Source: Ottowia thiooxydans DSM 14619 (GTDB lineage Bacteria > Pseudomonadota > Gammaproteobacteria > Burkholderiales > Burkholderiaceae_C). From it: a stretch of 64,000 bases of DNA. Shown here one piece after another: positions 27,165 to 48,823 of this stretch. The stretch covers positions 1 to 64,000 of the forward strand of contig NZ_AUGX01000034.1 of assembly GCF_000422885.1 (NCBI RefSeq), given 5' to 3'. The stretch's first letter is position 1. The number at the start of each line of letters is the position of its first letter. The notes under the pieces were generated by a model. It did no database searches. It saw nothing but the letters and a program-made list of their open reading frames with translations, and was not told where the DNA came from. A program made the position numbers and the translations under genes.

Positions 27165-27173
27165 GTTCATTGG

Positions 27174-32000: not shown

Positions 32001-35000
32001 CACGGAAGCCCTGATCGCGGCCAAGCCGCGACCGGATCACGAGAGGGTCGGTGAAGTAGCCCACGATGAGGGCGGACTCCGCGTGATCGCGCCCCGCTTG
32101 AGGGGAGCCAACCAGCAGATCGTCCTGGCCTGCGGTTCGATGCACAAGCGCCAGAAAACCCGCCAGGAAGACGACGTACGGAGTGGCACCCACTTCTCTG
32201 GCCAAGGCTTTCATGGCGAGCGTCAGTTCTTCGGACAAGGCGAACGCGCAGGACGCACCAGCAAAGCCCTTTTGGGCAGGGCGTGGATAGTCTGTGGGCA
32301 GATCGAGTACCGGCAAGGGCCCACCAAGCTGATCGCGCCAGTAAGTCCACAAGGCCTCACCCTTCGCGCTGGAAAGCAGTTGGAGCTGGCGGCGGACGTG
32401 GGCGCGGTAGCCCGACGCTTCTGTGACGTGAGCAGTGTCTGGCGCGCCTTCCGTGGCGATGTGCGGAAGTTGCCGCCGGATCAGCTCCAGTGACCAGCCG
32501 TCTGAGACGATGTGGTGCATGGAGAGCAGCAGCAGTGCACTGCCGTCATCTCTTGGAAACCAGCCAAAGCGGATCACCGGGCCATGTTCAAGATCGAAAG
32601 GCTGGCGATGCAGTGCGGTGACGTCCTGCATGCTCCAGCCAGCCACCGGCATGTCAGCCCATTGCACCTCACCGGCCGGCATGGCCTGTTGCACCACTTG
32701 CCCATCCACTAGGAGCCTGTCGGACTTGGAAATCGTCGGCTGCAAATCGACCTCAGCGGTCCATTTTCCACCGTCTTCTTGACCCATAGCTGGGCTATGG
32801 GCCTGCGAATCCGGAGAAAACTGTCCTCGCTGGGGCCGATTTTCGCTTTCGACGCTCCAAGTCCGATAGGCTCCTAGACGGAACACGCTCCGCAGTTGAG
32901 GGTGGCTGGCGACCAGGGCTCGGCAGGCTGCGCGCCAGCGAATGGGGTCAGCAGGTGCGGCGATCTCCAGCGGTAATGACAAGCCGTAGGCGCTTGAGTG
33001 CGGTGCCAACTGCCAGAGAAACCAGAGTGCTCGTTGGCCGTAAGAAAGGGGGCAAGGCTCGGACTCTGCAGACGGCGGCTCAGGGGTAGTCACCTCGCTC
33101 AGCGCTCCGGACTTGAGCAACTGGGCCTGTACCACGGCGGTCAGGCTCTCAAGCGTGGCCTCGCCGGTCAGATGGGCGAGCGTCGTGTCGAGCCCGAGTT
33201 TGCTGGCCAGTTCATTGCGCAAACTCATCGCCATCAAGGAGTCCAGGCCCATGCGATTCAAGGGCTCGCTTGGCTCCAAAGCGCTTTCAGCAAGGCCACC
33301 CAAGGCGGATGCCACCATTCGCCGCAGGCTGGCCTCTACCAGGGCGGGCTGCTCTTGCAAGGGTGTAGCGCGCAAACGATCGATCAGCGAGTTTTTCCTA
33401 GGCGGAGGGCTCGTTGGCGATGGGGCAGCAGGCACATTCACTGCTGGTGCACTCATGTGCATTTCAGGGCGTTTGTCTATCCACAACCTGCGCCGATCGA
33501 ACGGCGTCAAGGGCACGCTGGCTCGGCGCCAAGGCCTGCCGTCGTGGAACTGACGCCAATCGACGTGGGCACCGGTGCTATAGAGGTCTGCCAGCGCTTG
33601 CAGCATTCGGCGCTGCTCTCCGGAGGTGCCGTTCAAACTAGCCAGCCAGGTGCCTTCGCTGTGGTCATTTTGGGCCAGCCCCAGCAGCACGGGGCGGGGG
33701 CCAATCTCAATAAACACCGTGCAGCCTGTGTTTTTCAGAGTCTGCATGGCCGGCTCAAACAGCACGGTCGAGCTCAATTGCTGCGTCCAGTAATGGGCGT
33801 CTGGCGCGCTTTCCAGCAGGGCACCGGTCAGTGTGGAGACCATGGGCAATTGGCCCGCTCTGGGCGTCACTGCTGTCGCGATGCAGTGGAAGGGTTCCAG
33901 CGCTGGAGCCATCAGCGGCGAATGGAAAGCGTGTGAAACCTTTAGGCGTGCTGCAGTGGTGCCGGCCTGATGGAGCAGATGCTCCGCTCGGGCTATATCG
34001 CCCTCCGCGCCTGAAAGCACCGTATGGTGGCGACCATTGATGGCGGCGATGGCCAGGGGAAGCGTTGATTCCGTCAGGAATGCGGCCACTTGCGCGTGGC
34101 CCAGGTGGACCGCCAGCATGGCGCCCCCTGCGGGCAATGACTGCATCAACCTGCCGCGGTGGGCCACCAGGGGCGCTGCCTCTTCCAGAGTCAGCATGCC
34201 CGCGGCGCAGGCGGCCGCATATTCACCAATGCTGTGCCCAAGTACGGCATGCGGCAGCACGCCCCAGCTTTTCCAGAGCGCGCACAGGGCGTATTGAATG
34301 CCGAACAAACTTGGTTGTGCCAGCGCGGTGGCGTCCAAACTGTGCCCGCTCCGGAGGAGCTCAATCAGAGGCTGTGTCATGAACGGCTGCAGCGCTTGGC
34401 CAGCCGCTTCCAGAGCTGCGCGGAAGGCAGGTTCTGAGTCCAGGAGTTCGCAGCCCATGTTGGCCATTTGCGAGCCTTGCCCGCTGAACAGGAATGCGAT
34501 CTTCGGGGGGCGAGCGCAGTGGGCCGGTGTTTTGTGCGCAAGCGCTTCAGCAAGCTGCTCAGCATCGGTTCCCACTACCGCGATTCGGTAGCGCGAGTGA
34601 TCGCGGCCCAGTTGAGTGCTGGTGCAAAAGCTCGCGAAGCTTGCGCTCCCTATCTTTGGCAAGGTGTGAGCGACGGATAGCGCGAGCGCCTCGGCTGCCG
34701 AAGCAGAAGGCGCTGAAAGGGTCAGTATCTGAAGTTCGCGTGGAGCGCCTGCCACTTCTGCATCATGGGGCGTTTCATCAGGCGCCTGGGTGAGAATGGC
34801 GCAAGCATTGGTGCCGCTGATGCCAAACGAGCTGACGCCGGCAAAGCGTGCTCGATCAGGATTCGGCCAGGGTTGCAGACTCCGCGAGACGGCAAAAGGC
34901 AGCTGCGCCCAATCCACACGGTGATTGGGCGATGTGAAGTGCAGATTGGATGCAATGCGACCGTGCTGCAACTGAAGCACGCCCTTGATGAAACCAGTGA

Positions 35001-37752
35001 TTCCAGCAGCCGCTTCCAGATGGCCCAGATTGGTTTTGACGGCGCCCAGTATCAAGGGCTTGTCCTGCGGGCGCTCGCTGAACACGTGGCCCAATGCGTT
35101 GAGCTCGATCGGATCACCCAGCGACGTGCCGGTGCCGTGTGCCTCAAAGTAGTCCACCTCCTGCGGGCTGATCCGGCTGGTATTCAATGCCTGGCGTATC
35201 AGGGCCTGCTGGGCCTGTCCGCTGGGCACGGTGAAGCCGCTGGTGCGGCCATCGTGGTTGACCGCGCTGCCTCGCACCACGGCCAGAATGGAGTCACCGT
35301 CAGCCTGGGCGTCGGCCAGACGCTTCAGCACGACCACGCCGCAACCTTCGCTGCGCACGTAGCCGTTGGCGCCATCGTCGAAGGTTTGGCATCGGCTGTC
35401 TTTCGACAAAGCGCCCGCGCGCGCCAGCATGATGCTGGTCTCGGGCGAGACCAGCAGATTGACCCCACCTGCCAGTGCCAGATGGCTTTCCCCGTCTCGC
35501 AGGCTGCGGCACGCCAGATGCAGCGCCACCAGCGAGGAGGAGCAGGCCGTGTCGACAGCCATGCAAGGCCCATGAACGCCCAGATGGAAAGACAAGCGCC
35601 CTGCGGCGGTCGAGTGCGCGTTGCCGGTGCCCAGGTAACCCGAGACGTTCAGCCGCTCGGCCATAGACAGGCGCTGCAAATACTCGGTGTGGCTGATGCC
35701 CACAAAAATGCCGGTGGCGCTGTTCTTAAGAGATGAGGGCGTGATGCAGGCCGATTCCAGCGCTTCCTGGCTCACCTCCAGCAGCAGGCGTTGCTGTGGA
35801 TCGAGCGCGATGGCTTCCCTTGGCGAGATGCCAAAGGCGGTGCAATCGAAGTCACGGATTTCTTTCAGGAACCCGCCGTGAAAGATGTGCGGCATGCTGT
35901 CGGGGTCCACCCCGGCGGCACGCAGCTCGGACAGGTCCCATCGGTCGTCTGGCACAGGGCAGATGCCGTCGCCACCCGCGCACAGGAAATCCCAGAAGGC
36001 CTGCGGCGTGTTGATTCCGCCGGGAAGGCGGCACCCCATGCCGATGACTGCAATATCGTCTGAATGGGTTCTGGCACCGGACGTGGCGGGAAGTGCGCTT
36101 GTACCCTGGCTCAGGTAGGTCGCCAAGGCAGAGATACTGGGATGGTCGAACGCTACCGTCTGGCCTAGCGGCCGCGCCAGTTGAGTCTGCAAGCGCTCGG
36201 CCAGTTCCACCAGTTGTAGCGATCCCATGCCCAGCTCGAAGAAACCGCGATCGGCGTCGATAGCCTCCGGTGCTTCAAGCTCCAACAAATCGGCCACGAG
36301 GTCACGCACCATGGCCTCCAAATTCAAGGCCGTGAACGCGGTTGGTTCCACCGGCAACCCCGGCTCCTGAGCCGACTGCAACAGCAATGAAGCGTGTTTT
36401 GCACCGCCAGCCAAAGGCACAGTATCGAATGCGCTGGCGTCAATCTTGTGGCCTCGCACAAACATCTGCGCCAGAAAGCAACGCAGCTGAGAGAGAGTGG
36501 GGCGATTTTCCAGATTGGTGGCCATGCAGAAAGCTGACCTTCCGCGCAGCGTGTCCCGTGCGAAGCCGGCCAGATGTCCACCGGGGCCGACCTCCACGAA
36601 GGTACGGATGCCATCTTCGTATAGGCGTTCAATGGTTTCCCGAAACCGTGCACGATGAGTCCACTGCAGGGCCAGCACTTCACGAATACCCGCAAGCTCA
36701 GCAGGCAAGGGCGCCGCAGTGGTTGCGCTGTAGACGGGCACGGAGGGCAGGCTGAGCGGCATGCCGGCATACATACTCTGCAGCGCGGGCTGGCTGACGG
36801 GAAACAGCGGCGTGTGTACCGGTATCGTCATTCCCGGCAATCGCAGGCACAGGTTGCCGCGGGTGGACAGGGCTTTTTCTATCGCGGCCACCTCCGTTTC
36901 GGGGCCACACAAGATGGCCTGCTGAGGGCAGTTGTCCAAAGCCAGAAATACGGAGTCTTCAGCGCCCACTGCTTTCCCGCTGACTTCTTCCGTCGTCGCG
37001 GGCTGCTGGCGGAATGCCGCCAAGGTTTCCCGTGATGCGGCTGTGACCGCAATCATCCGCATGTCTGCGGCACGGGAGCGTGCGTCAGGGTCCGATTGGG
37101 CAATGGCGCCCATCATGGCGTCGAGCAACCCAATCGCATCGGCCTGCGACGTCATTCCCGAAGCGGCGAGCACCGCCGTTTCTCCGTAGCTGTGGCCGAT
37201 CATGGCGTCGCAAGCCAGGCCCGGTGCACAGCGGGCCAGCACGGTGTGCAGGGCCAGGGAGCCTAACAAGATGGCGTCTATGCCTTGCCTGAAGTCGGGC
37301 GCAGCCGGTTGATCCGTGCCGGGATGGATCAAGGTGTTGGACTCGAACCGTTTCCGGGCATCCGCCGGTAGGGCGTCGAACCACTGCTGCACTTCAGGAA
37401 AGGCGGCGAGAAGATCGGCCATCAGGGTGCGATGGTGCGCCCCAAAGCCAGGGAACATGAATGCGACCCGATGAGGTTCCACCTCTTCGCCAACGTTCTC
37501 GGTTCTTCGGCCGTAGAACACTTGATTGGCCAGATTGAAAACTGGCTTGTCACTTCCACGGGTCAGGCGTTCGCTGGCGAGTTGGATGGCAGCGGCCAAA
37601 CCTTCATCATCGTCGGCCACCAGTGCCAGGCGATGCAATTCGGTGTCGTTCCAGGGGTGAGGCTGATGTCCCGCCAGGATGTTGGCCAGTTCGGCAAGAA
37701 GCTCTTCCTGGGAGGCTGCCGACATGAGCAGTAATTTGCCGCGCTCCGTCAT
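29017..37752 (-). CDS. Hybrid PKS-NRPS megasynthase AT-ACP-KS-AT-ACP-C-A-PCP-TE
   Basis: This 2911-aa multidomain enzyme has the following order. AT1 94-445 (Ser188 in GHSYGE); ACP1 476-550 (Ser511); KS 565-990 (Cys737 in DTACSSS, His872, His911); AT2 1085-1380 (Ser1174 in GHSIGE, HAFH at 1274-1277, which favours malonyl). ACP2 1470-1545 (Ser1505 in MGLDSL); condensation 1567-2010 (HHIVSDG, His1746/His1747); adenylation 2065-2545 (FTSGSTGEPKG); PCP 2555-2630 (Ser2590); thioesterase 2650-2905 (Ser2722 in GHSFG, His2889). It predicts one more chain extension, coupling to one amino acid and release or cyclisation. A 55-residue foreign insert (1627-1681) lies in the condensation domain. The start overlaps the 905-aa gene's stop. 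The amino acid used is not assigned. Confidence 0.92.
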   Translation of the reverse strand: MTERGKLLLMSAASQEELLAELANILAGHQPHPWNDTELHRLALVADDDEGLAAAIQLASERLTRGSDKPVFNLANQVFYGRRTENVGEEVEPHRVAFMFPGFGAHHRTLMADLLAAFPEVQQWFDALPADARKRFESNTLIHPGTDQPAAPDFRQGIDAILLGSLALHTVLARCAPGLACDAMIGHSYGETAVLAASGMTSQADAIGLLDAMMGAIAQSDPDARSRAADMRMIAVTAASRETLAAFRQQPATTEEVSGKAVGAEDSVFLALDNCPQQAILCGPETEVAAIEKALSTRGNLCLRLPGMTIPVHTPLFPVSQPALQSMYAGMPLSLPSVPVYSATTAAPLPAELAGIREVLALQWTHRARFRETIERLYEDGIRTFVEVGPGGHLAGFARDTLRGRSAFCMATNLENRPTLSQLRCFLAQMFVRGHKIDASAFDTVPLAGGAKHASLLLQSAQEPGLPVEPTAFTALNLEAMVRDLVADLLELEAPEAIDADRGFFELGMGSLQLVELAERLQTQLARPLGQTVAFDHPSISALATYLSQGTSALPATSGARTHSDDIAVIGMGCRLPGGINTPQAFWDFLCAGGDGICPVPDDRWDLSELRAAGVDPDSMPHIFHGGFLKEIRDFDCTAFGISPREAIALDPQQRLLLEVSQEALESACITPSSLKNSATGIFVGISHTEYLQRLSMAERLNVSGYLGTGNAHSTAAGRLSFHLGVHGPCMAVDTACSSSLVALHLACRSLRDGESHLALAGGVNLLVSPETSIMLARAGALSKDSRCQTFDDGANGYVRSEGCGVVVLKRLADAQADGDSILAVVRGSAVNHDGRTSGFTVPSGQAQQALIRQALNTSRISPQEVDYFEAHGTGTSLGDPIELNALGHVFSERPQDKPLILGAVKTNLGHLEAAAGITGFIKGVLQLQHGRIASNLHFTSPNHRVDWAQLPFAVSRSLQPWPNPDRARFAGVSSFGISGTNACAILTQAPDETPHDAEVAGAPRELQILTLSAPSASAAEALALSVAHTLPKIGSASFASFCTSTQLGRDHSRYRIAVVGTDAEQLAEALAHKTPAHCARPPKIAFLFSGQGSQMANMGCELLDSEPAFRAALEAAGQALQPFMTQPLIELLRSGHSLDATALAQPSLFGIQYALCALWKSWGVLPHAVLGHSIGEYAAACAAGMLTLEEAAPLVAHRGRLMQSLPAGGAMLAVHLGHAQVAAFLTESTLPLAIAAINGRHHTVLSGAEGDIARAEHLLHQAGTTAARLKVSHAFHSPLMAPALEPFHCIATAVTPRAGQLPMVSTLTGALLESAPDAHYWTQQLSSTVLFEPAMQTLKNTGCTVFIEIGPRPVLLGLAQNDHSEGTWLASLNGTSGEQRRMLQALADLYSTGAHVDWRQFHDGRPWRRASVPLTPFDRRRLWIDKRPEMHMSAPAVNVPAAPSPTSPPPRKNSLIDRLRATPLQEQPALVEASLRRMVASALGGLAESALEPSEPLNRMGLDSLMAMSLRNELASKLGLDTTLAHLTGEATLESLTAVVQAQLLKSGALSEVTTPEPPSAESEPCPLSYGQRALWFLWQLAPHSSAYGLSLPLEIAAPADPIRWRAACRALVASHPQLRSVFRLGAYRTWSVESENRPQRGQFSPDSQAHSPAMGQEDGGKWTAEVDLQPTISKSDRLLVDGQVVQQAMPAGEVQWADMPVAGWSMQDVTALHRQPFDLEHGPVIRFGWFPRDDGSALLLLSMHHIVSDGWSLELIRRQLPHIATEGAPDTAHVTEASGYRAHVRRQLQLLSSAKGEALWTYWRDQLGGPLPVLDLPTDYPRPAQKGFAGASCAFALSEELTLAMKALAREVGATPYVVFLAGFLALVHRTAGQDDLLVGSPQAGRDHAESALIVGYFTDPLVIRSRLGRDQGFREFLTATRQTVLGALEHSQFPFALLVERLAPQRAADRSPLFDASFNFTPAAVQNDDLPEVRQIEQADGKFDLTLNLRDGVAASGWFGYDTQLFSAAGMARLRDNFIHLLESAVADPERSVSTLATSRARDGLALVPVLSGETLELSAQDHVARRFESASRTHPDSMALVAEDARLSYRQLDAIACRLATQLSNQGLGHGSRVGVMARRTAGFFAAVLAIHKIGAAYVALDPAWPQALLERTIANNAISLSFGEHGPDLSVMADSAGHAPTHPSFAQAANSLDDPAYVIFTSGSTGEPKGVEISHRSLANYVASMAPLLGLEAPGNFALVSTLAADLGLTMVFPSLCLGACLHVLPEEASLDGARFADYIEREHIDYLKIVPSHFAALTAGRMVFPRRVLVFGGEGASPSWVAGLQKAAGACRIFNHYGPTETTIGVLCGEVTATTPVHAGSLPLSHAVAGSEIYLLDAQDNPVPGGAIGHLHVSGPCLALGYLGLASQASFITLNGLRLYRTGDLARQWPDGALEILGRIDRQAKIRGFRIEPAQIESALRRQPGISECAVITVPGPNSTARLLGFVVANGQTPELSALRETLTKLLPAPMVPEHIFYLDALPRNANGKLDTAALALRATPAREEGAQLPRDMIEIELTRIWTEVLGVAQVGIHDDFFSLGGHSLLAVKLLSLIQQKFGNQLSLGQILTHPSIAAQAETLRTAASQTSPSSALISLRQGDSRQAPLYLLPGAGGSIVYLFSLVRALPGDLPVRALQGRGLQPDDPVPRTVEEAAVHHVALLEQAQPAGPVRLAGHSFGALVAYEMARLLQSRGRRVDFLGLIDNAAQSTASSARSDQQWLAYIARRIEKLSGKSLDLGGIEAAADYSAAAHLLSVRMVTADLLPGGMDEAYLLRFLDIYRANTIAASLYRPQPLAQGLRATVLVAEQKDIELELADGPAGDATQGWGALIAPTPKVVVVPGTHLSMLNEPHAQTLALKIAQAIGD
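32709..32877. mobile_element. 161-bp MITE-like palindromic element, copy 1, inside the C domain
   Basis: The element (32713-32873) is flanked by a CTAG duplication (32709-32712 and 32874-32877). Its ends are 18-bp inverted repeats of the form GAGCCTGTCGGACTTGGA with one mismatch. The whole element folds as a long imperfect palindrome with a central hairpin (arms 32783-32790 and 32794-32801). With one CTAG it adds exactly 165 bases, so 55 codons stay in frame with no stop. The 4-bp CTAG duplication fits the YTAR target of IS5-group elements; that origin is inference. Confidence 0.85.
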
Positions 37753-40466
37753 GAGAAAGCCTTGCTGCGTGCCACCCTCAAGGGGGTGCCACCTGGACGA
37801 TAGTCGAAGCTCATGTCGTAATCGCCATAGGTCAATAGGTTCCGCGAGATGGTGATGGCGTGCAGCGGTGGTGTGGGCATACCTCGCCTGGCCATATCTT
37901 CCAGTGCCAGCTCCTTGGCCGCGATGCGGGCGAGCAGATCCTCTACATCACGATGCGAGGACCATGCAGGCAGCTCATGCGCGTTCAATACGCGGTGGGC
38001 CAGGGCGCGAGCCCAGATTCCGCCGTTGGCTTCCAGAGTGTCACGCCACTCATCCAGGTTGATGGTGCGTTCACCCGATGCGGTCGAACTTGAAAATGCC
38101 ATACGGCCGTCACCGAAAATCCAGTTAGCCAGGATGGACGGCAGCGCAATCAGCCGCTGTGCAAAACCTTCTATCGTCGCGATGATGCGTCCGCCGGCGG
38201 AGAACACGAAGTCGGCTTCGGTCACGGCCTCTCCATGAACGGCAATGCGTCCCTCGCAGCGTACGCGAACGCCAGGAGGGGGTGTTTCATGGAGCACGAC
38301 ACGCCGGGCCTGATACGGAAAGACGCCCGTGTCTGCGGTGATGATCGAATGCTCCAGCAACCACAGGGCGACCAACTGGCCTGCGCCATCCAGCAAAGCG
38401 GGGTCTGCGGCGAAGAGCTCGGCGTCCGCGGCGGGTGGCAGGGTGGTTTCAAGTTCGGCCACGATGCCCGTGGATCCGATCCAGGTCACTTGGCGCAAGC
38501 ATTGGAACTGTGGGCCGTGGAAAGCGTACTCCCGGTAGAAGCGCTCCGGAGTCCAGGCGCATCGCCCGGAGCCTTGTTCGCCGAGGGGGGCAAGCGGGGC
38601 CACCGCGGCAGGGATGAACTCGACATGGCTGGAGAATGCGGGCTCATCGTGGAGCGGCTGCTCGTCGCGCAAGGAGATGTCGACCGTGTTCGCCTGTCTC
38701 GACCAGGCGATGTGGAGGCCGAGCTTTCCTTCATCCAGGGCGAGCCAGCGCTGCGCCTTGACGGCGGTCAAAACAACGGGAGCACTCCTATGGGCGCCCA
38801 CTGTTTGCCTGGCCACCGCAGCCGCCAGCGCCAGGCTGGTGGTGAATGCGAGGACCGGCAGGGCCGGCTGCCCACGCCCAAGACTGTGGTCTGCGAGCCA
38901 GGGCATGGCCGTAGTCGATAGCTGGCGACGAAGCTCCCGGGCAAGCGCACCACCACTGAACGCGGCGGTGACGGCCGTGCCAGGCTTTGTGGCTGGGTGC
39001 GCGGAACCCGTACCTCGGCGGCTCAGGAAGCTTTGTTGCATCGCCTGCATGCGGGCCTTGGCATCTGTAATCAGTGCGGCCTGGCGCTCAATCAAGCCTT
39101 GGCGCTGTGGAGGCGATGTCAACGGCCTTGCGACCGGCGGTGGGGCGGGAAACTCGCGAAGCCGTATGCCGTGAACATCGAGGCCCACACCATGGGCATA
39201 AAGTTGCGCGAGTAGCGTCTTGAGTACGGCCATGTCGTCCTGGCGGGCACTGGCCATGCCTGCGGCCAGGTGAGGGCGGCCTCGCAGTGTGTCATCCACG
39301 AAGGCGCAGAGTTTGTTGTCAGGCCCTACTTCAATGAATGTGTGGATACCCTTGGCATAAAGGTTTTCCACGGCATTGCGCAGGCTGATGGTGGCAGTCC
39401 ATTGGCGTGCCATGGTCTCGCGCATGGCATCGGCTTCGGGCCCCATGGCTTGCCCGGTCAGGCAGGAATAGACCGGCGTTTTGGGCGAGGGCAAGGCCAG
39501 GAGCGGGTAATGCGCCGCAAGCGTTTCGCCCCAGCGCGCAAAAAGAGGTGTGTGATAGGCCCTCTGAAAGGGCAGCTTCAGGCCGATGCCGCCTTGCGCA
39601 CTGATGTGCTCGGCCACCTTTTCAAGCTCAGCGCGATGGCCCCCTAGAACTTGTTGGAGCGAACAATTGTCCATGGCCAGGAAAACCTCACCCTCGCGCT
39701 CTGCCAGCAACGCAGTGAGTGCGGTGCTGGAAAACGCGCTTACGGCCAGCATGCCCTGCGCTGGCTCAGGTGGGTGCAGGGCCAGTCCGGCGCGGCTGGT
39801 TTGGTGCAGCCAGTCACAGATGTGCTGGCGATCACGGCTCAGATCCAGACAGGCCGCCATGACCGCCGCGTGCTCACCGTTGCTGTGGCCGAGCAAGGCA
39901 TCGGGGCGCACGCCGTATCCCACCAGTACCTCGTGCAACGCGAGGCTGATGGCCGTGCTGAGTGGGCCACCCCGCGCAATGTCGAACAAGGCCGATTCAT
40001 CGGCGTTCGAACCCGAGGGAGGGTAAATCAGCTCGGAGGGTGGTGGGTGCCCGTGGCCCAGGAAGGTTTGGTCCAGGGCGCTCAGCCACTCACGAAGCGG
40101 TGACAGATGCTGCCGCGCGGTATCCATCATGCCCACGCGCTGGGCACCTTCGCCTGGGTACAGAAAGGCGACTCCGGAGGCCTGCTGTCCCTGGCCAAAG
40201 TAAATGCCCCGATTGCGCATCGACAGTCGTGTGCGGCCAGGCTCCGCCAGCTTTTCACGCGCCACTGCCAGGAGCGCGACAAGCTCCTGTGCCGGCCCCA
40301 CGATCGCCAGGCGCTCCTGCTCATCGGGCTGGCCAAGCTCGTCTTGCAAGGGGCTGATTCCGCTGGCCAGGCGCTGAGTAGCGCGGTCAATACGGCCGAG
40401 CAGGCTGGCTCGGTCAGGGGCTCCCAGCAGGAGCAGACGAGGCGGTGCGTGCTCGGTTGGGTTCAC
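37749..40466 (-). CDS. PKS protein AT-DH with PPTase-like C-terminal tail
   Basis: This is a 905-aa protein. Residues 95-430 form a PfaB-like acyltransferase with FLYPGEGAQ, Ser195 in the unusual GHSNGEHAAV, and HTPLF. Residues 505-780 form a dehydratase hot-dog pair with His527 in WLADHSLGRG, YAFHGPQFQ and the LLDGAGQLVALWL aspartate motif. The tail (about 805-905) with ALAHRVLNAHELPAW and LLARIAAKELALEDMARRG resembles the K-E-A part of 4'-phosphopantetheinyl transferases. It sits between the two large synthases and overlaps the next gene by four bases. It likely supplies dehydration in trans to the iterative 2350-aa synthase. Confidence 0.85.
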   Translation of the reverse strand: MNPTEHAPPRLLLLGAPDRASLLGRIDRATQRLASGISPLQDELGQPDEQERLAIVGPAQELVALLAVAREKLAEPGRTRLSMRNRGIYFGQGQQASGVAFLYPGEGAQRVGMMDTARQHLSPLREWLSALDQTFLGHGHPPPSELIYPPSGSNADESALFDIARGGPLSTAISLALHEVLVGYGVRPDALLGHSNGEHAAVMAACLDLSRDRQHICDWLHQTSRAGLALHPPEPAQGMLAVSAFSSTALTALLAEREGEVFLAMDNCSLQQVLGGHRAELEKVAEHISAQGGIGLKLPFQRAYHTPLFARWGETLAAHYPLLALPSPKTPVYSCLTGQAMGPEADAMRETMARQWTATISLRNAVENLYAKGIHTFIEVGPDNKLCAFVDDTLRGRPHLAAGMASARQDDMAVLKTLLAQLYAHGVGLDVHGIRLREFPAPPPVARPLTSPPQRQGLIERQAALITDAKARMQAMQQSFLSRRGTGSAHPATKPGTAVTAAFSGGALARELRRQLSTTAMPWLADHSLGRGQPALPVLAFTTSLALAAAVARQTVGAHRSAPVVLTAVKAQRWLALDEGKLGLHIAWSRQANTVDISLRDEQPLHDEPAFSSHVEFIPAAVAPLAPLGEQGSGRCAWTPERFYREYAFHGPQFQCLRQVTWIGSTGIVAELETTLPPAADAELFAADPALLDGAGQLVALWLLEHSIITADTGVFPYQARRVVLHETPPPGVRVRCEGRIAVHGEAVTEADFVFSAGGRIIATIEGFAQRLIALPSILANWIFGDGRMAFSSSTASGERTINLDEWRDTLEANGGIWARALAHRVLNAHELPAWSSHRDVEDLLARIAAKELALEDMARRGMPTPPLHAITISRNLLTYGDYDMSFDYRPGGTPLRVARSKAFS

Positions 40467-40484
40467 CGGTGTTCGCTCCCCAGG

Positions 40485-43400
40485 TCAGCCCGCATGGGCT
40501 TCGCCATGAAGCAGGAGCAGGGAGAGCTCGAACACGGTCGACAGAAGTCGATCGATTTCGAGGGCCCAAGGACCATTGCCGGCAATCACTTCTGATTCAC
40601 CCTTGCGGCCACGGCTCATCTCTTCGACAAAAAAGCGCCGTCCGGCAGCAATAGAAACCGGTGTGATGCCCTGGCCTTCCAGCAAGGCCAGTACCCCGTC
40701 TGCCGCCATTCCGGCACCTTGCCAGGGACCCCAGTCAATGGTGACAACGCGGGTGCTCGGCCAACGCTGGTCCAAATGGGTGCCCAGCCGCGCCATGACC
40801 TGGTTGGCCGCCGCGTAGTCGGACTGACCCTGATTGCCGAACCGGCCGGAGATGGAACCGAACAACACCATCCACTTGAGTTCTGCAGGCCGAAGCAGAT
40901 GGGAAAGCAGATAGGCGCTGTCCGCCTTGGTGTCAAACACGCGATCGAATGACTCCGGCTCTTTAGCGAGGAAGGACTGATCTTCGATCAACCCGGCGCC
41001 ATGGACCACTGCATCAATGCGCCCGTAGCGTTCGTACAGATCGTTGATGAGATGGGTCATGGCAGCCTCGTCACGCACGTCAAGGCTGTAGTACTCCACT
41101 TCGGCCCCGGCTGCGCGGAACGAGGCCATGCTGGTTTCGCGCTCCTGGCCGGCGCTGGTGTCCTGCGCTGCCGAGCGTCCGACCAGCACCAATCGAACGC
41201 CGGGGGCTGCCAGCTCGCGGCAGATTTCTGCGGTGATGCCCCTGGCTCCTCCCGTGGCCAGAACTACCCATCCGGCTTGAGGGCGCCAGCGGTCATCAGC
41301 CGGGGCATCCGTGGGCCAGGGCGCCTGCTGCGGAACCCGGATGAAGCGCTCGCCAGCGCGGTAGGCAATCTCGGTTCCACCGCCTGGTAGCGAGGCTTCT
41401 GCGAACAACAACTCGACCAGCCCTGAAGAAGAGGGCTCCACATCCACCACCTTGGTCAGCAGGTGCGGAAACTCCTGTTCAACTGAACGCAGCAGGCCAT
41501 GGCAACCGCCCGCGGCGGACCATGCGGCCGTATTGCCTTCTGGGTGCTCAATGTCCAGCACGCCGCCTGATTGGGAGGCGGCAAGCAGACGCATAGGATG
41601 GCCCGGGTCGGTCAGTTCCTGCGCGCATGCCTGTAAGAGTACGTGCAAGCTTTTGACGACCCGCGCGGTGGCATCACGCCACGCGGCCAGGTCATCTGCT
41701 TGCGCAGGTGAACCCAAGGCGGCCAGATGCACAATGCCTGCCACCGGGCCATGAACATAGCGCTGCGCGGTCAGCCGACGAACGATCAACTCGGGCGAGT
41801 TCAGCTCCTCGTGGGGAATCAGGCAGGCGCCGAGGCCTTCAGCGTGGAACTTACCCAGCAACTGGCGGGCGACATCGCCGTTGTCGCTCGTAATGACCCA
41901 CAAACCAGAAGCCGGCTTGGGTAGGCGGGTTGGCAGCGGTTTGACACGATCCACCATCAGGAAACGAGGGCAACCGGGGCCGCCCGTATCGACCGCGATC
42001 GGATCAAACAGACGGCTTTCGGTTTGCTGCAACACCGATTCGACGATCGCCTTCAATGATTTGGCCTGCACCAAGCGATTGAGCTGTTTGCGCAACTGAC
42101 CGGACACCTCTGCCGGCAGGCTCTTCACCAGGTTGTTGATGATTTCGATCCGCTTGATCGAGTCAATGCCCAACTCGCCTTCCAGGTCTTGCTCCAGACC
42201 CAGCATTTCCACCGGATAGCCCGTGCGCTCGCTCACCAGACGCACCAGATCCTGCCGCAATCGATCACCATCGATGGTGACCTGTACCGGCTTGAGGCTG
42301 GGTGCGGCGGCATCCTGTGCAGGCGGTGCGTCCCCGGCGTTGGCATGGGTGGTGTCTACAGCCCTTTGTGGGGCAGGGCTGGCGACTTGTGCTGGGTGAT
42401 GCTGGCTCTGGCTTTGCGGCGAAGAATGGCCGTCCAGGACCCTCATCATCATGCGTTCCTGCTGATCCAGGAATTGGCGCATGGTTTCCTGGTATTGCCC
42501 GAAAGCGTCCGCCACGGGATCGGCCCCCAGTGCGCTGGGCGCTGTGGCCAGAGTGGCCGGCGCACTGGCGGGACTGAGCGCATCGCGAAACGGAGTAACG
42601 CCCACCAATGCTGGTTGGCCGGGCTGATAGATGCGCCCTCCGTCCAACATCCAGGCGTGCTGCTTGGCGGTAGGGAGTTTTTCCAGATCGAGAGTGCGTA
42701 CTTCGCGCTCCTGAAACAGCGCATCCAAGGCCACTGGTTGGCCAGCAGCCCACAGGCTACCCAGTGCGCTCAGCCAGCTTTTGAGGGAGCCTTCGGAGGC
42801 CACAGCCTTATGGGGGCGGTCACCCAGGATCTGACCCACCAGCCCTGTGAGTACCCGGCCAGGTCCGATTTCCAGAAAATGCCGGACACCCGCCTCCCAC
42901 ATGGAGGTGATCTGGGCCGAGAAATTCACGGACTGCTCCAGATGCTCGGAGCAGCGCTGGCGAACACCGTCGACATCCTCAGGATAGGGCTGGCCATCCA
43001 GGTTGGCGTGCACCGGCCACTTGGGCTGCATGAACCGCACCTCCTGCGCCAGGAAGCCGGCAAAAGGTTCAGCCGCACCGCGCATCAGCGGTGAATGAAA
43101 GGCGGCGGACACTGGCAGCGGGCGTGCCACGTGCCCTGCCGCCTCAAGGCGTGAGCACAGTGCGGCCAAGCTTTGAGTGTCTCCCGACAACACCGTTTGA
43201 GTGGGGCTGTTCAGGTTGGCAATCCACACGCCCTCGCTATCATTTTTGCCATCCCTGTCTGCAAGAAACGGCTTCAACGCGTCCAAGCCTAGCCCTGCCA
43301 TCAGCATGGTGCCAGAGCCCGCTTCGCCCATCAGCCTGCCACGCTCGGCGGCGAGTTTGAGAAGGTCATCCCGGGACAGCGCACCCGCCGCATGCAACGC

Positions 43401-46400
43401 GACAAACTCACCGAAGCTATGTCCTGCCACCCGTTCTGGCGCCAGGCCGCAGCGCCGGGCCAGATCAAGCATTCCGGCCGAGAGGGCGGCAATGGCCGGT
43501 TGGGCGACACGGGTGTCGGCCAGTTGCTTTTCCTGTGATTGCCGGCTGCTCTCGTCAAAAGCGGCTGGCGGCAGGATCAGCCCTCGCACATCGGAGTGGT
43601 GCAATGCATCGCCAACTTCGGCAAAGTAAACGGCCAGCTCCGCCCCCATGCCTGGAAACTGAGAGCCTTGTCCTGGAAACAGGAACGCGAGCGGGCTTCC
43701 CTCTTGCTCGGCAGGCCCTTCAGCGCTGCCAGCATAGATACCCGGTGGTGGTTTGCTGCCACTCGATTGCAACCAACCGGCAGCTGCCGCCAATTGGCGC
43801 TGCAGATCGCTTTTGGATGTCGCCACCAGCGCCAAGCGCATGCGCCCCGCATCACTGGTAGCGCGCGCGAAGCTGGCACGAGAAAGGTCTCGCAGGCGGA
43901 CGGTGTCATCCGTGTTCACCAAAGTGGTGGCCAGCTGATTCAAGCGTTCAGCCAGTCGCCCACGGTCGGTTGCCTTGAACGCGAACAACTCGAGGGGCCA
44001 CGCATCAGCACCCATCGCGCCCGTACCATGCTCTTCCAGCACCGCATGAAAATTAGTGCCGCCAAAGCCAAAGGCGCTGACACCAGCTTGCCTGGCCTTG
44101 CCTTCAGGTTTGAACCACGGCAAAGGGCGGTCCAGCAGGAAGGCAGGGGAGTCGGTTTGCAGCAACGCGGCCAGGGGCGTCTTCACGCCACCATGTGGCG
44201 GGAGCGTGCGGTGGTGGAGTGCCAGCGCAGCCTTGACCACGCCAGTAAGGCCCGCAGCCGCCCGTGTGTGTCCGAGTAGCGACTTGGCTGAACCTACAAC
44301 GCATGAGTTGGCGCCTGCTCCGCTTCCGCTCAGCACGGAGATGAGCGATTCCAGCTCGGCCTGGTCTCCCACCCGGGTGCCTGTGCCGTGTGCTTCATAA
44401 AGCCCCATGGCGTTCACTTGGGTGCCACCAGCCCGGTGGGCCCGCTGCACGGCCTTGACCTGTCCTGCGGGCTTGGGCGCGGTGAGGCCCATGCCTCTGC
44501 CATCGCTGGAGCCGGCCACGGCGCGAATCAGGGCATACACACGGTCACCGTCTCGCTCGGCGTCTGACAAGCGCTTGAGCACCAGTGTGACGGCGCCTTC
44601 ACTGATCACGATGCCATCAGCCCTGGCGTCGAAGACGTTGGCTTCGCCGCGCCCTGAAAGTGCCTGGGTCTTGCTGAACGCCATGTAGGCATGGGGAGAG
44701 AGCTCAGTTTCTACCGCACCGGCGAGCACCATGTCGGAGCGATGCGACTGCAGCTCCCGCACCGCCAGATCCAAAGCGGCGAGCGAAGACGCGCATGCCG
44801 CGTCCACTACAAAATTGCAGCCTCCCAGGTCGAACCTATTGGCAATGCGGCCCGCCACCACATTCAGCAAGATGCCCGGGTAGCTTTCCTCAGTCCACTC
44901 AGGTAGGCGCTGCTGCGCCTCTTCCGTCATGGGCGTGATCAATGGCAACGCGGAGCGCGCCTTGTACATGAGTTCAAGATCACCGGTGCTGGCCACGCCA
45001 AAGATCACTGAGGTCTGCTCTCGCAGCGCCGCATGATCGGACAGATTGCCTAGCCCGGCGTCTTCCAATGCCCGGCGCGTGGTCTCGAGCGCGAGCAACT
45101 GCGCCAGGCTGATGGATTGCAGGGACTTTGGAGGAATGCCGTAGCCCAAGGGATCGAACGGCAAAGCATCAATGAAACCGCCCCATTTTGAGTAAATGCG
45201 GTCGCGCGCCTTGGGATCACCATCAAAGTACAAGCGCCAGTCCCAGCGCGACTCAGGAACCTCGCGAATGGCATTGGCTTGATCCAGCAGATTGCGCCAC
45301 AGGGCGGAGGCCTCTTGTGCACCGGGCAATACGCATCCGATGCCGATGATGGCGACTGGTTCGTTGTTCATGTCTTCGTCTTTCAGAGGCGCACCGAGTG
45401 GTTCCTGAAGGGAGCCCAGCAAGCGCATGGCGCCGTCAGCGACGCGGTGGTGCAACTCGGCGCATGAGATCCGAGCCTCGTTGAGTCCCACCACCTCGCC
45501 CATCATGAAGGCGCCTTCATGCATCATTTGCGCGGAATCGACTTGTCGCAATTCATCGCCATGTCGAATGATTCCCTTGGAGGCGATTCGCAGGCGACCC
45601 TGAAGAAGCTCTTCGAGCTGGTCTCCCACGGCGCCGGGTGGCTCGCCCGCTGCCAGCAAGGCGCTGCGGCGCTGATCGAAGGATTGGGTGAAGGGCGTTG
45701 GGGCACATCGCACTCGGTGGCCAGGCCGGGTTTCTATCAGGACCGTACGGCTGGACTCCAGCGCCTGTTGCTGGAAGAGATCGGCGATGGCGCCCGTGGC
45801 CACCGCTTCGCGGGTGAATAGATAGGCGCTGCCCATGAGCACGCCAATGCGGATACCCCGGGCAGCCAGAGGGGCGGCCATCGCGGCCACCATCGCTGCC
45901 GAGCGCTCGTCATGAATGCCGCCGGCAAAGAGAACATCCGCATGCTGCCCTTTGGGCAACTGCAGCAAGGCATCGATCATGGCGTTCCACAGCGGCAGGC
46001 TGTAGAGCGGCCCCACATGTCCGCCGCATTCACTGCCTTCGAAAACGAAGCGGCGTGCGCCTTGTTCCCAGGCCAGCGCTAGCAGGGAAGGGGTGGGTAC
46101 GTGGATATAGGTCGGAATCCCCAGGCTTTCCAGGCGAGCGCCCTGTTCGGCGCTGCCTCCGGCGACCACGGCAAAAGCGGGCCGGCACTCAGCGACGGCT
46201 TCCAGCTGGGCTTCAAGCAACTCGGCCGGGAGGTATCCCAAGAGGCCCGCGCCCCATGGTTTTCCTGCGAGGCGAATGCGGGTTTCCTTCAGCAGCGTGG
46301 CCACGCGGTCGGGCTGCATCACGGACAAGGCCACCATGGGCAAGCCGCCTGCTTCAGCGACTGCCTCGGCGAACGCGGCGCCATCGCTGACACGCGTCAT

Positions 46401-47537
46401 GGGGCCTTGGACGATAGGAAACGCTGTGCCATGGGCTCGCGCGAGCGGGCCGTTTTGGGCCAAAGGCTGAAGGGCTGCGGCCAGCGCCACGTCGCGGCGG
46501 CAAGCGGCGCGAATGGCGGCCATCAGGTGGCCCATGCTGCCGTAGCGGCTGGCGATGCGATGCGCTTGGCCCGCCATCTGCCCAAGAGGCCAGTCAAAAG
46601 TGGTGGGATCACCCCAACCAATCTGCCGTTGGCCCATGACGGGGTGTGAGAACCGATGCCCGGCTGCCACGCGATAGCGCTCACCTGAACCATTGACCAG
46701 TACCCGCGTATCTTCCATCCGTTGCTTGCCAAGCACAGACTGCCAGGAGGCAGGCGGAGAGAACTCGCGCAGCAACAGAAGTGCGTCATCCAGTACCACT
46801 CCGCTGGCGCCGCCAACCTGGCACGCCACTGCAGAGTGAACACCTATACCGCCTTGTATCCAGAACGGCTTGTCTTGCTTGGCCAGATGCTGGCAGAAGA
46901 TGAAAGCAGACTCTTCACCGCAGCGGCCAGCGCTTTCAGCCCCGCGCGCGAGCCAGCCTGCAAATGGCAGAGCCGGAGAAACCGTGCCTATGTCACCACG
47001 ACTGGTCAGCTCCAGCCAGATGGGTCGTATGGGTGCGCCTAGGAGGCTGTCGGACTTGGAAATCGCCGGCTGCAAATGGGCCGCAGCGGTCCATTTTTCA
47101 CGGTCTTTTTGACCCATAGCTAGGCTATGAGCCTGCAAATCCCGTGAAAACTGTCCTCGCTGGGGCCCATTTTCGCTATCGGCGCTCCAAGTCCGACAGC
47201 CTCCTAGACGTTCAAGCAGTGCGGGTAATTCACGCGCGGTCCATTGGCTTAGAACCAGAAAGCAATCCGTGCTGTCAAGCCAGCGCTCGAGCTGGAGTGC
47301 GTCTGCGGCGTCAATCCGCAAACCGAGTGTGGATCGTGTGGGGTCTGCGCTCCCAATGGGCCTGCCCAGCCTCTCCACTAGGGACTTGATATCGTCTGAC
47401 GGCAGGCCTGTGCCATCCAGCAGAGGTATGCCACCCGCAGCGTGGACTGCCTTGACGGCCTGCAGTGCAGTGTGAGGCGGAATGAGCGCGATGCAATCCA
47501 TGGCCTTGACTTCAATGTGGGTGGGACACGGGCTCAT
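40485..47537 (-). CDS. PUFA-synthase-like PKS ER-KS-AT-ACP-KR
   Basis: This 2350-aa enzyme is related to PfaA of polyunsaturated fatty acid synthases but has a PfaD-like FMN enoyl reductase fused in front. ER about 13-700 (IVQGPMTRVSDG, FEGSECGGHVGP, VLFAGGIHDERS); KS 725-1170 (Cys915 in DAACASS, His1050, His1090); AT 1282-1590 (Ser1374 in GHSFGE). ACP 1752-1840 (Ser1793 in LGIDSIKRIEI, the PUFA form); KR 1850-2330 (GGARGIT, Tyr2241 in QSDYAAANQ). A 55-residue insert (residues 113-167) encoded by a palindromic element interrupts the ER region. With the DH of the next gene it can run full reductive cycles. The start at 47537 follows the GT1 stop by eight bases and has an upstream GGAAG. Confidence 0.9.
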   Translation of the reverse strand: MSPCPTHIEVKAMDCIALIPPHTALQAVKAVHAAGGIPLLDGTGLPSDDIKSLVERLGRPIGSADPTRSTLGLRIDAADALQLERWLDSTDCFLVLSQWTARELPALLERLGGCRTWSADSENGPQRGQFSRDLQAHSLAMGQKDREKWTAAAHLQPAISKSDSLLGAPIRPIWLELTSRGDIGTVSPALPFAGWLARGAESAGRCGEESAFIFCQHLAKQDKPFWIQGGIGVHSAVACQVGGASGVVLDDALLLLREFSPPASWQSVLGKQRMEDTRVLVNGSGERYRVAAGHRFSHPVMGQRQIGWGDPTTFDWPLGQMAGQAHRIASRYGSMGHLMAAIRAACRRDVALAAALQPLAQNGPLARAHGTAFPIVQGPMTRVSDGAAFAEAVAEAGGLPMVALSVMQPDRVATLLKETRIRLAGKPWGAGLLGYLPAELLEAQLEAVAECRPAFAVVAGGSAEQGARLESLGIPTYIHVPTPSLLALAWEQGARRFVFEGSECGGHVGPLYSLPLWNAMIDALLQLPKGQHADVLFAGGIHDERSAAMVAAMAAPLAARGIRIGVLMGSAYLFTREAVATGAIADLFQQQALESSRTVLIETRPGHRVRCAPTPFTQSFDQRRSALLAAGEPPGAVGDQLEELLQGRLRIASKGIIRHGDELRQVDSAQMMHEGAFMMGEVVGLNEARISCAELHHRVADGAMRLLGSLQEPLGAPLKDEDMNNEPVAIIGIGCVLPGAQEASALWRNLLDQANAIREVPESRWDWRLYFDGDPKARDRIYSKWGGFIDALPFDPLGYGIPPKSLQSISLAQLLALETTRRALEDAGLGNLSDHAALREQTSVIFGVASTGDLELMYKARSALPLITPMTEEAQQRLPEWTEESYPGILLNVVAGRIANRFDLGGCNFVVDAACASSLAALDLAVRELQSHRSDMVLAGAVETELSPHAYMAFSKTQALSGRGEANVFDARADGIVISEGAVTLVLKRLSDAERDGDRVYALIRAVAGSSDGRGMGLTAPKPAGQVKAVQRAHRAGGTQVNAMGLYEAHGTGTRVGDQAELESLISVLSGSGAGANSCVVGSAKSLLGHTRAAAGLTGVVKAALALHHRTLPPHGGVKTPLAALLQTDSPAFLLDRPLPWFKPEGKARQAGVSAFGFGGTNFHAVLEEHGTGAMGADAWPLELFAFKATDRGRLAERLNQLATTLVNTDDTVRLRDLSRASFARATSDAGRMRLALVATSKSDLQRQLAAAAGWLQSSGSKPPPGIYAGSAEGPAEQEGSPLAFLFPGQGSQFPGMGAELAVYFAEVGDALHHSDVRGLILPPAAFDESSRQSQEKQLADTRVAQPAIAALSAGMLDLARRCGLAPERVAGHSFGEFVALHAAGALSRDDLLKLAAERGRLMGEAGSGTMLMAGLGLDALKPFLADRDGKNDSEGVWIANLNSPTQTVLSGDTQSLAALCSRLEAAGHVARPLPVSAAFHSPLMRGAAEPFAGFLAQEVRFMQPKWPVHANLDGQPYPEDVDGVRQRCSEHLEQSVNFSAQITSMWEAGVRHFLEIGPGRVLTGLVGQILGDRPHKAVASEGSLKSWLSALGSLWAAGQPVALDALFQEREVRTLDLEKLPTAKQHAWMLDGGRIYQPGQPALVGVTPFRDALSPASAPATLATAPSALGADPVADAFGQYQETMRQFLDQQERMMMRVLDGHSSPQSQSQHHPAQVASPAPQRAVDTTHANAGDAPPAQDAAAPSLKPVQVTIDGDRLRQDLVRLVSERTGYPVEMLGLEQDLEGELGIDSIKRIEIINNLVKSLPAEVSGQLRKQLNRLVQAKSLKAIVESVLQQTESRLFDPIAVDTGGPGCPRFLMVDRVKPLPTRLPKPASGLWVITSDNGDVARQLLGKFHAEGLGACLIPHEELNSPELIVRRLTAQRYVHGPVAGIVHLAALGSPAQADDLAAWRDATARVVKSLHVLLQACAQELTDPGHPMRLLAASQSGGVLDIEHPEGNTAAWSAAGGCHGLLRSVEQEFPHLLTKVVDVEPSSSGLVELLFAEASLPGGGTEIAYRAGERFIRVPQQAPWPTDAPADDRWRPQAGWVVLATGGARGITAEICRELAAPGVRLVLVGRSAAQDTSAGQERETSMASFRAAGAEVEYYSLDVRDEAAMTHLINDLYERYGRIDAVVHGAGLIEDQSFLAKEPESFDRVFDTKADSAYLLSHLLRPAELKWMVLFGSISGRFGNQGQSDYAAANQVMARLGTHLDQRWPSTRVVTIDWGPWQGAGMAADGVLALLEGQGITPVSIAAGRRFFVEEMSRGRKGESEVIAGNGPWALEIDRLLSTVFELSLLLLHGEAHAG
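47039..47207. mobile_element. 161-bp MITE-like palindromic element, copy 2, inside the ER domain
   Basis: This element (47043-47203) is the same length as copy 1 and also has a CTAG duplication (47039-47042 and 47204-47207). Its terminal inverted repeats, GAGGCTGTCGGACTTGGA, are perfect over 18 bp. It lies in the same orientation and reading frame as copy 1 and encodes a 55-residue peptide, about 70% identical to that of copy 1. Removing it restores a continuous LLERLGAPIRPIW. Relative to copy 1, at least three substitutions occur symmetrically on both arms. Confidence 0.85.
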
Positions 47538-47545
47538 GGCTTGCT

Positions 47546-48823
47546 CTACTTCCGGCGTATGGCTCTTTCAATGATGCGGACCACCTCGCCCACGCCGTCT
47601 TCGGCGCGCAAGGTCTCGGCAACGGCTTGTGCATTCTGACGAAAGCGCGGTTTGTCGACCAGGCGGACAATGGCCTCACTCAGGTTGTCCGCATTCAATG
47701 AGGCGGCGGGAATGGGTGCCACACCGGCGCCCAGCCGGGCAATGCGCGCACCCCACAAAGCTTGTTCATAGCCAAAGGTCACTGCCACGTTGGGAATGCC
47801 CGCCCGCAATGCTTCTGCGGTGGAGCCTGCTCCACCCTGATGCACCAGGCCGGCCACGCGAGGTAACAACCAATCGTACGGAACACTATCCACCTTGAAC
47901 ACATTGCTCGGCAAGTCGGCTTGTCCAATACCGCCCCAGCCTGCAATCAACAAGCCCCGTTTGCCTGATCGGGCGAGCCCGTCCATCACTGCTGATGAGA
48001 TTCGCTTGGCATCACGCCCGATCTGGCTGCTAAAGCCCAAGGCTACAGGCGCTTCGCCGGCGGCCAGAAACTCAGCCAGCGGGGCGGGCGGGGTAAATTG
48101 AGTCTTTTGCTCCAGGAACCAGTAACCGGTGACGTGCGCATTGGCGCCCCAATCCCAAGGTTTTGGCAAAACTGCGGGGCTGTAGCCAAACAGGTGGGGC
48201 AAGCTTCTAAGTTGGCGCAGCTCCGTTTTCCAGTCCAGCGGTGGCAAGCCCAGGGTCTGCTCTCGCCAGCGGTCGACCTGCGTTTGCCCTATGCGCGTGA
48301 ACGGCTCGGCCCAGCGCCAGCTCCACCGGTTGTAGAGCGGGCCCAAATTGCGTCCCTGCAATTGGGGTGGCCCTTGAAAGGGATTGGCGAAGGCGAAAGT
48401 CGGAAGGTGAAGCACCGGGGTTGGGCTCACAATCACCAGCGGAATCTTCAGCTTCTCGGCCAGTGAGGGTCCTACACGGGTCCAGGACCAGCACAGGATC
48501 ACATCGCTGTCCTGGCAGGCTTCCCAGCAGGACTTGAACAACCGGTCTAGAAAGAGGCCCAGATAGTCGTTGAGAAAGCGCGTGAACTTCTTAGGGTCTC
48601 GAATCCGCTCCCTTAGCGCGACACCAGCAGCTCCGCCGTAGAAGTCAGCCGAGCTGCCCGCCAGGCGTGCATATTCCAGACCCAGGCCGCTCACCCATTC
48701 CTCGAAATCCGCGGGTGCAGCAAAACGCACTGAATACCCAGCCTTCTTCAGGCCCATTGCCAGAGCCAAAAGGGGTTGAATGTCGCCCCTCGACCCCAGA
48801 GCGAGAATGGTGCAACGAGGCAT
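47546..48823 (-). CDS. GT1-family (UGT-like) glycosyltransferase
   Basis: This 425-aa GT-B inverting glycosyltransferase begins LALGSRGDIQPLLALAMGLK, the typical opening of natural-product and sterol glycosyltransferases. It carries the donor-site signature HQGGAGSTAEALRAGIPNVA near residue 320. Such enzymes decorate polyketide and lipid aglycones with NDP-sugars. It lies between the free ACP and the 2350-aa synthase in the PKS operon, so it most likely glycosylates the PKS product, possibly with the deoxysugar made by the dehydratase, ketoisomerase and reductase genes. Confidence 0.9.
   Translation of the reverse strand: MPRCTILALGSRGDIQPLLALAMGLKKAGYSVRFAAPADFEEWVSGLGLEYARLAGSSADFYGGAAGVALRERIRDPKKFTRFLNDYLGLFLDRLFKSCWEACQDSDVILCWSWTRVGPSLAEKLKIPLVIVSPTPVLHLPTFAFANPFQGPPQLQGRNLGPLYNRWSWRWAEPFTRIGQTQVDRWREQTLGLPPLDWKTELRQLRSLPHLFGYSPAVLPKPWDWGANAHVTGYWFLEQKTQFTPPAPLAEFLAAGEAPVALGFSSQIGRDAKRISSAVMDGLARSGKRGLLIAGWGGIGQADLPSNVFKVDSVPYDWLLPRVAGLVHQGGAGSTAEALRAGIPNVAVTFGYEQALWGARIARLGAGVAPIPAASLNADNLSEAIVRLVDKPRFRQNAQAVAETLRAEDGVGEVVRIIERAIRRK

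Follow-up and report, generated by a model that had tools for sequence, protein, structure and literature searches.

The two 161-bp palindromes that lie in frame within two synthase genes of Ottowia thiooxydans DSM 14619 are very probably members of a transposable-element family of this order of bacteria, one of hairpin-forming, non-autonomous palindromes of the MITE type, whose copies inside genes are tolerated passengers. The window analyzed here is the whole stretch of 64,000 nucleotides at positions 1 to 64,000 of contig NZ_AUGX01000034.1. We refer to the element in gene 29017..37752 as copy A and to that in gene 40485..47537 as copy B; labels beginning with L and G denote loci and genomes of our sample, G000 being the host genome. 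An earlier note on this DNA had described a repeated, mobile-type palindrome translated in frame within genes and comparable to the Rickettsia palindromic elements (RPEs). That description holds, and the coordinates, the 161-bp length of each unit, the CTAG on both sides and the in-frame passage through both open reading frames (ORFs) all proved correct.

The palindrome and its copies

The features of the window are as follows.

29017..37752, minus strand: PKS/NRPS gene (window gene 1), 2911 codons, Pfam matches; copy A lies inside its condensation domain
32709..32712, no strand: left CTAG of copy A, target duplication or paired end
32713..32873, plus strand: copy A, 161-bp palindromic element, AAATCG side on the left; frame used is read on the minus strand
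32713..32730, plus strand: left terminal inverted repeat of copy A, 17/18 match to the right repeat
32856..32873, minus strand: right terminal inverted repeat of copy A
32874..32877, no strand: right CTAG of copy A
40485..47537, minus strand: PfaA-like PKS gene (window gene 2), 2350 codons, FabK/NMO-like region near the N-terminus
47039..47042, no strand: left CTAG of copy B
47043..47203, plus strand: copy B, 161-bp palindromic element; frame used is read on the minus strand
47043..47060, plus strand: left terminal inverted repeat of copy B, 18/18 match to the right repeat
47186..47203, minus strand: right terminal inverted repeat of copy B
47204..47207, no strand: right CTAG of copy B

The 18-bp terminal inverted repeats previously assigned to both copies are thus perfect in copy B, but in copy A only 17 of the 18 positions agree. 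Together with one CTAG, each element measures 165 bp, or 55 sense codons as claimed before, and is free of stops in the frame used. Copies A and B are identical at 143/161 positions, and they differ from the consensus of host-genome copies at 17 positions and one position, respectively. Predicted folding energies range from -86 to -107 kcal/mol, and these energies, along with the further copies in the genome, exclude a chance origin. Copy A carries an end variant of its own, GAGCCT, which is also present in half elements elsewhere in the host genome, and we therefore take A and B as separate insertions and not as a local duplication.

The search for other copies of the 161-bp unit was productive: many lie in the host genome (7.05 Mb, 78 contigs), where we extracted 17 copies of 161 bp and six of 85 bp plus older ones, and further copies lie in related genomes. 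The family is short, has terminal inverted repeats, contains no transposase gene and is dispersed in many copies, as is characteristic of MITEs. The 85-bp form (G000:C1:738426-738518 and five alike) is a shortened version that keeps both ends and mostly keeps its CTAG; it adds 89 bp and would shift a gene's frame. Our scan for paired ends covered the window and 106 regions of 11 genomes; of these 107 sources, 98 contained at least one unit and nine none. Of the resulting 103 units, four scoring below zero against copy B were removed, which left 99 copies from ten genomes. Their lengths are 161 bp (53 copies), 160 (11), 162 (6), 85 (6), 182 (5), 191 (4), 199 (4) and 176 (3), with seven single lengths, and length plus four is divisible by three in 67/99. 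Of the 99, 63 have CTAG on both sides, and 65 have identical flanking 4-mers. The context CGTCTAG, which is common to both window sites and had been read as target choice, does not generalize, as 62 copies with CTAG on both sides display no strong base preference outside the CTAG. Empty sites are seen at the protein level in homologs of FolC and of the L100 protein.

In 24 copies chosen for diversity, 95.8% of cells in the hairpin are paired, and 21/52 pairs are altered on both sides, compared to a mean of 14.1 in shuffles and a maximum of 8 with slid partners. A second covariation measure that admits further pair types gave 39, a value reached by 61/500 shuffles. The hairpin is kept by compensatory changes: either the structure is under constraint, or conversion between the arms repairs it.

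In window gene 1, the insert occupies residues 1627-1680 of 2911 and splits the Condensation profile, of which positions 5-63 precede and 67-446 follow it. The HHIVSDG of the interrupted domain is intact and corresponds to HHxxxDG, which we take to be the C-domain motif. Other Pfam matches in this gene are to ketosynthase, acyltransferase, adenylation, carrier and thioesterase domains. In window gene 2, copy B occupies residues 112-165 of 2350. The earlier placement of this second insert within the ER domain needs correction: it lies in the N-terminal region ahead of the FabK-like enoyl-reductase match at residues 371-700. The synthase cluster is adjoined by ABC transporter, outer-membrane efflux and oxidoreductase genes (20340-28112) and by a glycosyltransferase gene (47546-48823).

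Copies read in frame within genes

Thirteen copies lie in frame in ORFs of recognizable genes, eight of them supported on both sides of the element and five on one side only. Ten belong to the scripted set of 99, and three come from 20 regions chosen mostly for long open frames. They are distributed over six genomes (G000 4, G236 4, G393 2, G032 1, G180 1 and G337 1), and most of the in-frame cases found are ordinary genes, not natural-product synthases.

Supported on both sides:
window gene 1, NRPS condensation domain: Condensation profile before and after the insert
L104, receiver domain of a hybrid kinase, host genome: profile 2-38 before, 41-110 after
L100, presumably a DOMON-like protein, host genome: relatives aligned on both sides
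L162, BatA/VWA protein, G236
L165, phosphonate-binding/kinase protein, G236
L186, AAA_27 ATPase, G236, element of 191 bp
L213, FolC, G393
L230, helicase, presumably DinG-like, G032

Supported on one side:
window gene 2: support after the insert
L163, 6-phosphogluconolactonase: support before the insert
L318, AsmA-family protein
L320, FHA protein, element of 200 bp
L334, hybrid kinase, G393: contig ends inside the element

The portion after the insert has no Pfam match in L163, L318 and L320, and in L163 it yielded no 6-phosphogluconolactonase match in Pfam or PDB. At L334 (L334:3-2060), a contig of G393 stops inside the element carried by the hybrid histidine kinase gene; assemblies may thus be broken by the repeat.

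All 13 cases use element frame -2 (minus strand of the element, offset 2). Among the 99 copies, ORFs that extend 70 residues or more to each side of the element use frame -2 in 11 instances, +1 in one (L233, no recognizable gene) and -0 in one (L165, where it overlaps the element's own -2 frame). From those 11, we dropped L179, L190 and L232, in which the element by eye seems to lie upstream of the start codon, and we added L163 and L100 though they have fewer than 70 residues on one side. Also set aside were L094 (epimerase), L319 (COX1), L327 (HypF) and L333 (Aminotran_3), where the element precedes the start; L091, which matches no family; and other printed ORFs with no recognizable gene spanning the element. 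A codon-usage test, scored for 92/99 copies, missed both window genes and served as a guide only; it gave 12 copies with a strong same-strand coding signal on both sides, of which eight have their frame restored on removing length plus four and five run straight through.

Alignments indicate that the insert is absent from homologs of three of these genes. E. coli FolC aligns to L213 at query residues 23-241 and then 301-495, while its own position advances only from 230 to 234. A tblastn search of the window gene 1 region against plasmids returned 78 records, and the ten listed span 176-184 residues against 229-230 of the query; the Txo2 C-domain aligns to 26-87 (weakly) and 151-224. For L100, 13 of 14 genus relatives align on both sides without the insert and one aligns on the left side only. 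For window gene 2, a Beijerinckia PKS has a short N-terminus that fits the lack of an insert at this site, with a weak alignment there, and a search at E 1e-8 through 399 genomes of the order gave no homolog of the N-terminus, its matches being to the insert peptide. The observations that the earlier note set against its own reading were orthologs that all carry the segment, or a lack of other copies. Instead, copies exist and C-domains elsewhere do without the segment, but the comparison for the second gene is weak.

Offset 0 is closed on both strands because of the bordering TAG. In the 53 copies of 161 bp, frame -2 is open in 45, +1 in 20, +2 in four and -1 in none; the unusable frames +0 and -0 are open in 37 and 33. 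Within ORFs of at least 250 amino acids in the sampled loci, CTAG occurs 174 times in phase CTA/G (the slash marks the codon boundary) and 77 times in phase xCT/AGx. Insertion in the CTA/G phase puts frame +2 or -2 into use, and as a rule -2 alone of the two is free of stops. The constant frame and orientation of both window copies are thus explicable by target phase and stop codons. Hand counts of the matches listed in the survey of the order give about 130 of about 150 without a stop in frame -2 and about 35 of about 150 without one in +1; open copies were the basis of both profiles, and the rows include many 160-bp variants, which would shift a gene's frame.

Compared position by position with the consensus, the nine in-gene copies of 161 bp carry 52 nonsynonymous, 22 synonymous and one stop-making change, where chance predicts 67, 28 and 4%, respectively. 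The 44 other copies carry 253, 91 and six. These ratios lie near expectation and do not support selection on the amino acids of the peptide. Nor is it supported that the open frame evolved for coding, since the unusable frames are about as open. We read the element as a tolerated passenger sequence whose peptide changes look neutral.

Insertion is not restricted to harmless sites, as follows from L180 (L180:2746-3416), where a 160-bp copy splits a histidine-kinase-type HATPase_c domain (1-32 and 36-109) out of frame by adding 164 bases, which shifts the frame. Among other possible broken genes, L200 and L219 turned out to be gene ends, as did L168 and L174 by their C-termini, and the element at L166 lies at the end of a response-regulator gene; further candidates are L175, L184, L204, L229, L235 and others. 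Overall, the TAG at 39/198 element ends terminates an ORF of 100 codons or more, which involves 35/99 elements. Of all CTAGs in the same loci, element ends included, 128/1071 close such ORFs, a modest excess at the elements. Real genes that end in an element TAG include hemC (L200) and, at L174, the glutathione S-transferase and sigma-54 regulator genes; several others look antisense. The two L174 genes are convergent (L174:2380-4893), each stopping at one of the two CTAGs of a single element.

Several other readings of the in-gene copies were weighed against that of a tolerated passenger. Recruitment of the inserted peptide as a linker, binding or regulatory loop, kept by amino-acid selection, would fit the old, diverged receiver-domain copy L104, which is still open despite 23 differences from the consensus, and the similar peptide found in all aligned cases. 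The host proteins are unrelated, however, the nonsynonymous share is about that of chance both in genes and outside, and copy A has changed at 16 nonsynonymous positions to one synonymous, all of which makes recruitment highly improbable. That the hairpin is instead a useful regulatory RNA, such as a terminator or mRNA stabilizer, with in-gene copies as side effects, would account for the strong structural covariation and for the 35 copies whose bordering TAG ends an ORF. We regard it as quite improbable given the modest stop-codon excess, which includes antisense-looking ORFs, the patchy presence (36/399 genomes) and the Rfam search of four loci, which gave nothing at the element and one sub-threshold match away from it. 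For the window itself, both synthases might have been inactivated by the insertions, with the cluster decaying. Fifty-five residues within a C-domain are a major disturbance, and a 160-bp copy has broken a kinase domain elsewhere. Decay is nonetheless rather doubtful, as both ORFs (2911 and 2350 codons) are otherwise open, the HHIVSDG is unaltered and the frame persists although copy A, with its 17 differences, is old. It is also conceivable, though unlikely, that the family has been shaped for harmless landing, in that 161 + 4 = 165 and the open frame fit the commonest CTAG phase, and a copy landing at a stop-codon CTAG keeps the stop. If so, proteins across the order would time and again receive 55-residue insertions of one class from this natural source.

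Spread and mobilization

At the DNA level, the element matches 10 of 60 genomes (own included). With a 28-base end pattern, 16 stretches were found; the assemblies that contain them bear the names Comamonadaceae, Rubrivivax, Acidovorax, Burkholderiaceae and Proteobacteria. When sampled genomes of the order were searched with a profile of the peptide as read in the frame used, 36/399 matched (own included), as did 22/159 genera; some of these matches are weak, and they stand at the peptide-profile level, the DNA check covering a part. Carriage by plasmids or phages was rejected: two element copies and the window peptide found no match among plasmid records, nor the window peptide among phage records. 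A PADLOC scan added nothing, and within the terms searched no description of the family was found in the openly accessible literature.

We propose that the tolerated passengers arise as follows. The element would insert at CTAG, leaving CTAG on both sides and a net gain of its length plus four bases. As CTAG in genes is mostly in phase CTA/G, a 161-bp copy would read through 55 codons, usually without a stop, in one orientation, while in the opposite orientation nearly every copy would present a stop. Landing in the open orientation would give the host protein 55 passenger residues, and selection acting on the gene would keep such copies and remove many others. We infer here an enzyme acting in trans, a mechanism of 4-bp duplication, removal by selection, and tolerance over benefit. 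As mobilizer, our first guess is a DDE transposase acting in trans, and our second a hairpin-cutting HUH enzyme.

The IS5-group transposase with matching ends that the earlier note had envisaged did not emerge from the pattern scans or from the three PF05598 loci of the host genome, none of which has an inverted pair of such ends; one of them, L118, has a single end-like match with one mismatch. No gene bounded by CTAG-GAGSCTGTCGGACTT ends was found in the mostly draft genomes, end pairs being partly judged by eye. Pattern scans, likewise judged by eye, gave no end pairs at IS distance in the host genome and eight others, nor did a further scan among the matches listed for G393 and part of G337. 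A missing transposase is weak evidence because draft assemblies break at multicopy IS. Solitary ends were considered as insertion sequences and rejected: in five of 16 such regions, Pfam showed their neighbors to be ordinary genes (for DnaB, a Wzy-type ligase, a solute-binding protein, RelA/SpoT and a FecR/DUF6600 protein). They look like half elements.

A somewhat unlikely alternative is mobilization by a RAYT/TIRYT-type tyrosine (HUH, Y1) transposase that recognizes the single-strand hairpin and inserts it 3' of CTAG, the second CTAG being the element's own and not a target duplication. Covariation across the whole hairpin, and not at the ends alone, would suit such an enzyme, as would GTAG REPs, which are tied to enzymes of this kind and, in the passages cited, also give neighboring genes TAG stops (PMC3733652). 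In G236, moreover, a copy and a Y1 gene are about 500 bp apart. Yet only one of the 16 Y1 loci searched in eight genomes has a copy nearby, copy-rich G337 is without a Y1 match, and the ends of the element are symmetric inverted repeats. A RAYT partner in the manner of a REPtron was accordingly rejected (1/16 Y1 loci with a copy in the flanks; no Y1 match in G337 or G020). The G236 case (L245), a RAYT-like Y1 gene beside a 191-bp copy, probably reflects chance.

Relation to known palindromic repeats

The nearest known systems are the RPEs, with which we group the protein-coding palindromes of Wolbachia. Rickettsia, in which genetic work is difficult, supplies the best-known translated palindromes in conserved genes. 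RPEs are palindromic and measure 105-146 bp; they lie in frame in 19 genes, and one host enzyme, Gmk, is active with its insert, with changed substrate affinity, as given in the portions cited (PMC2229807, PMC10969869). As far as those portions describe them, RPEs and the present family are alike in being many-copy hairpins, some of them in frame in conserved genes as passenger peptides (PMC2229807, PMC10969869). The present family occurs in another bacterial group and has CTAG on both sides, whereas the RPE target duplication is marked '?' in the cited part of PMC2229807; its commonest length is 161 bp. It behaves like RPEs in that a hairpin is in frame in unrelated genes with one constant frame (13 cases, all -2). 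The likeness is one of behavior by analogy, and we claim no membership.

The GTAG/CGTC-tagged REPs of Di Nocera et al. 2013 are likewise palindromes, some of them in genes, whose ends give TAG stops; in the text cited, in-gene REPs are known in several genera including Thauera, and REP clusters in Thauera and R. conorii encode 43-82 residues (PMC3733652). The same source gives REPs as 20-40 bp with the tag at one end, the GTAG type often near RAYT genes (PMC3733652), in contrast to the single long hairpin here, which is bordered by CTAG at either end and for which no link to RAYT genes was seen. The RU-1 (ERIC), RU-2 and RU-3 repeats are similarly MITE-like, 103-168 bp long, with open frames fused to genes (Delihas 2007, excerpted; PMC2759123). 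The excerpt reports no RU repeats inside conserved domains (PMC2759123); here, receiver and condensation domains are interrupted, and FolC is interrupted between its two aligned parts.

With 161-bp and 160-bp variants occurring together, the one keeping and the other breaking the frame, a like-behaving family in another order makes the neutrality of the peptide directly testable. The same family also allows tests of the rate at which insertions are purged and of the tolerance of enzymes to 55 extra residues within a domain. The gene mcyD encodes a polyketide synthase. A MITE in mcyD of Anabaena is mentioned in the cited part of PMC4766695, and most in-frame cases found here are ordinary genes; the earlier note, which knew of no described case in natural-product synthases of this group, was in this respect too narrow. 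Annotators who meet a 55-residue segment repeatedly in unrelated proteins here are looking at transposon sequence and not at a domain.
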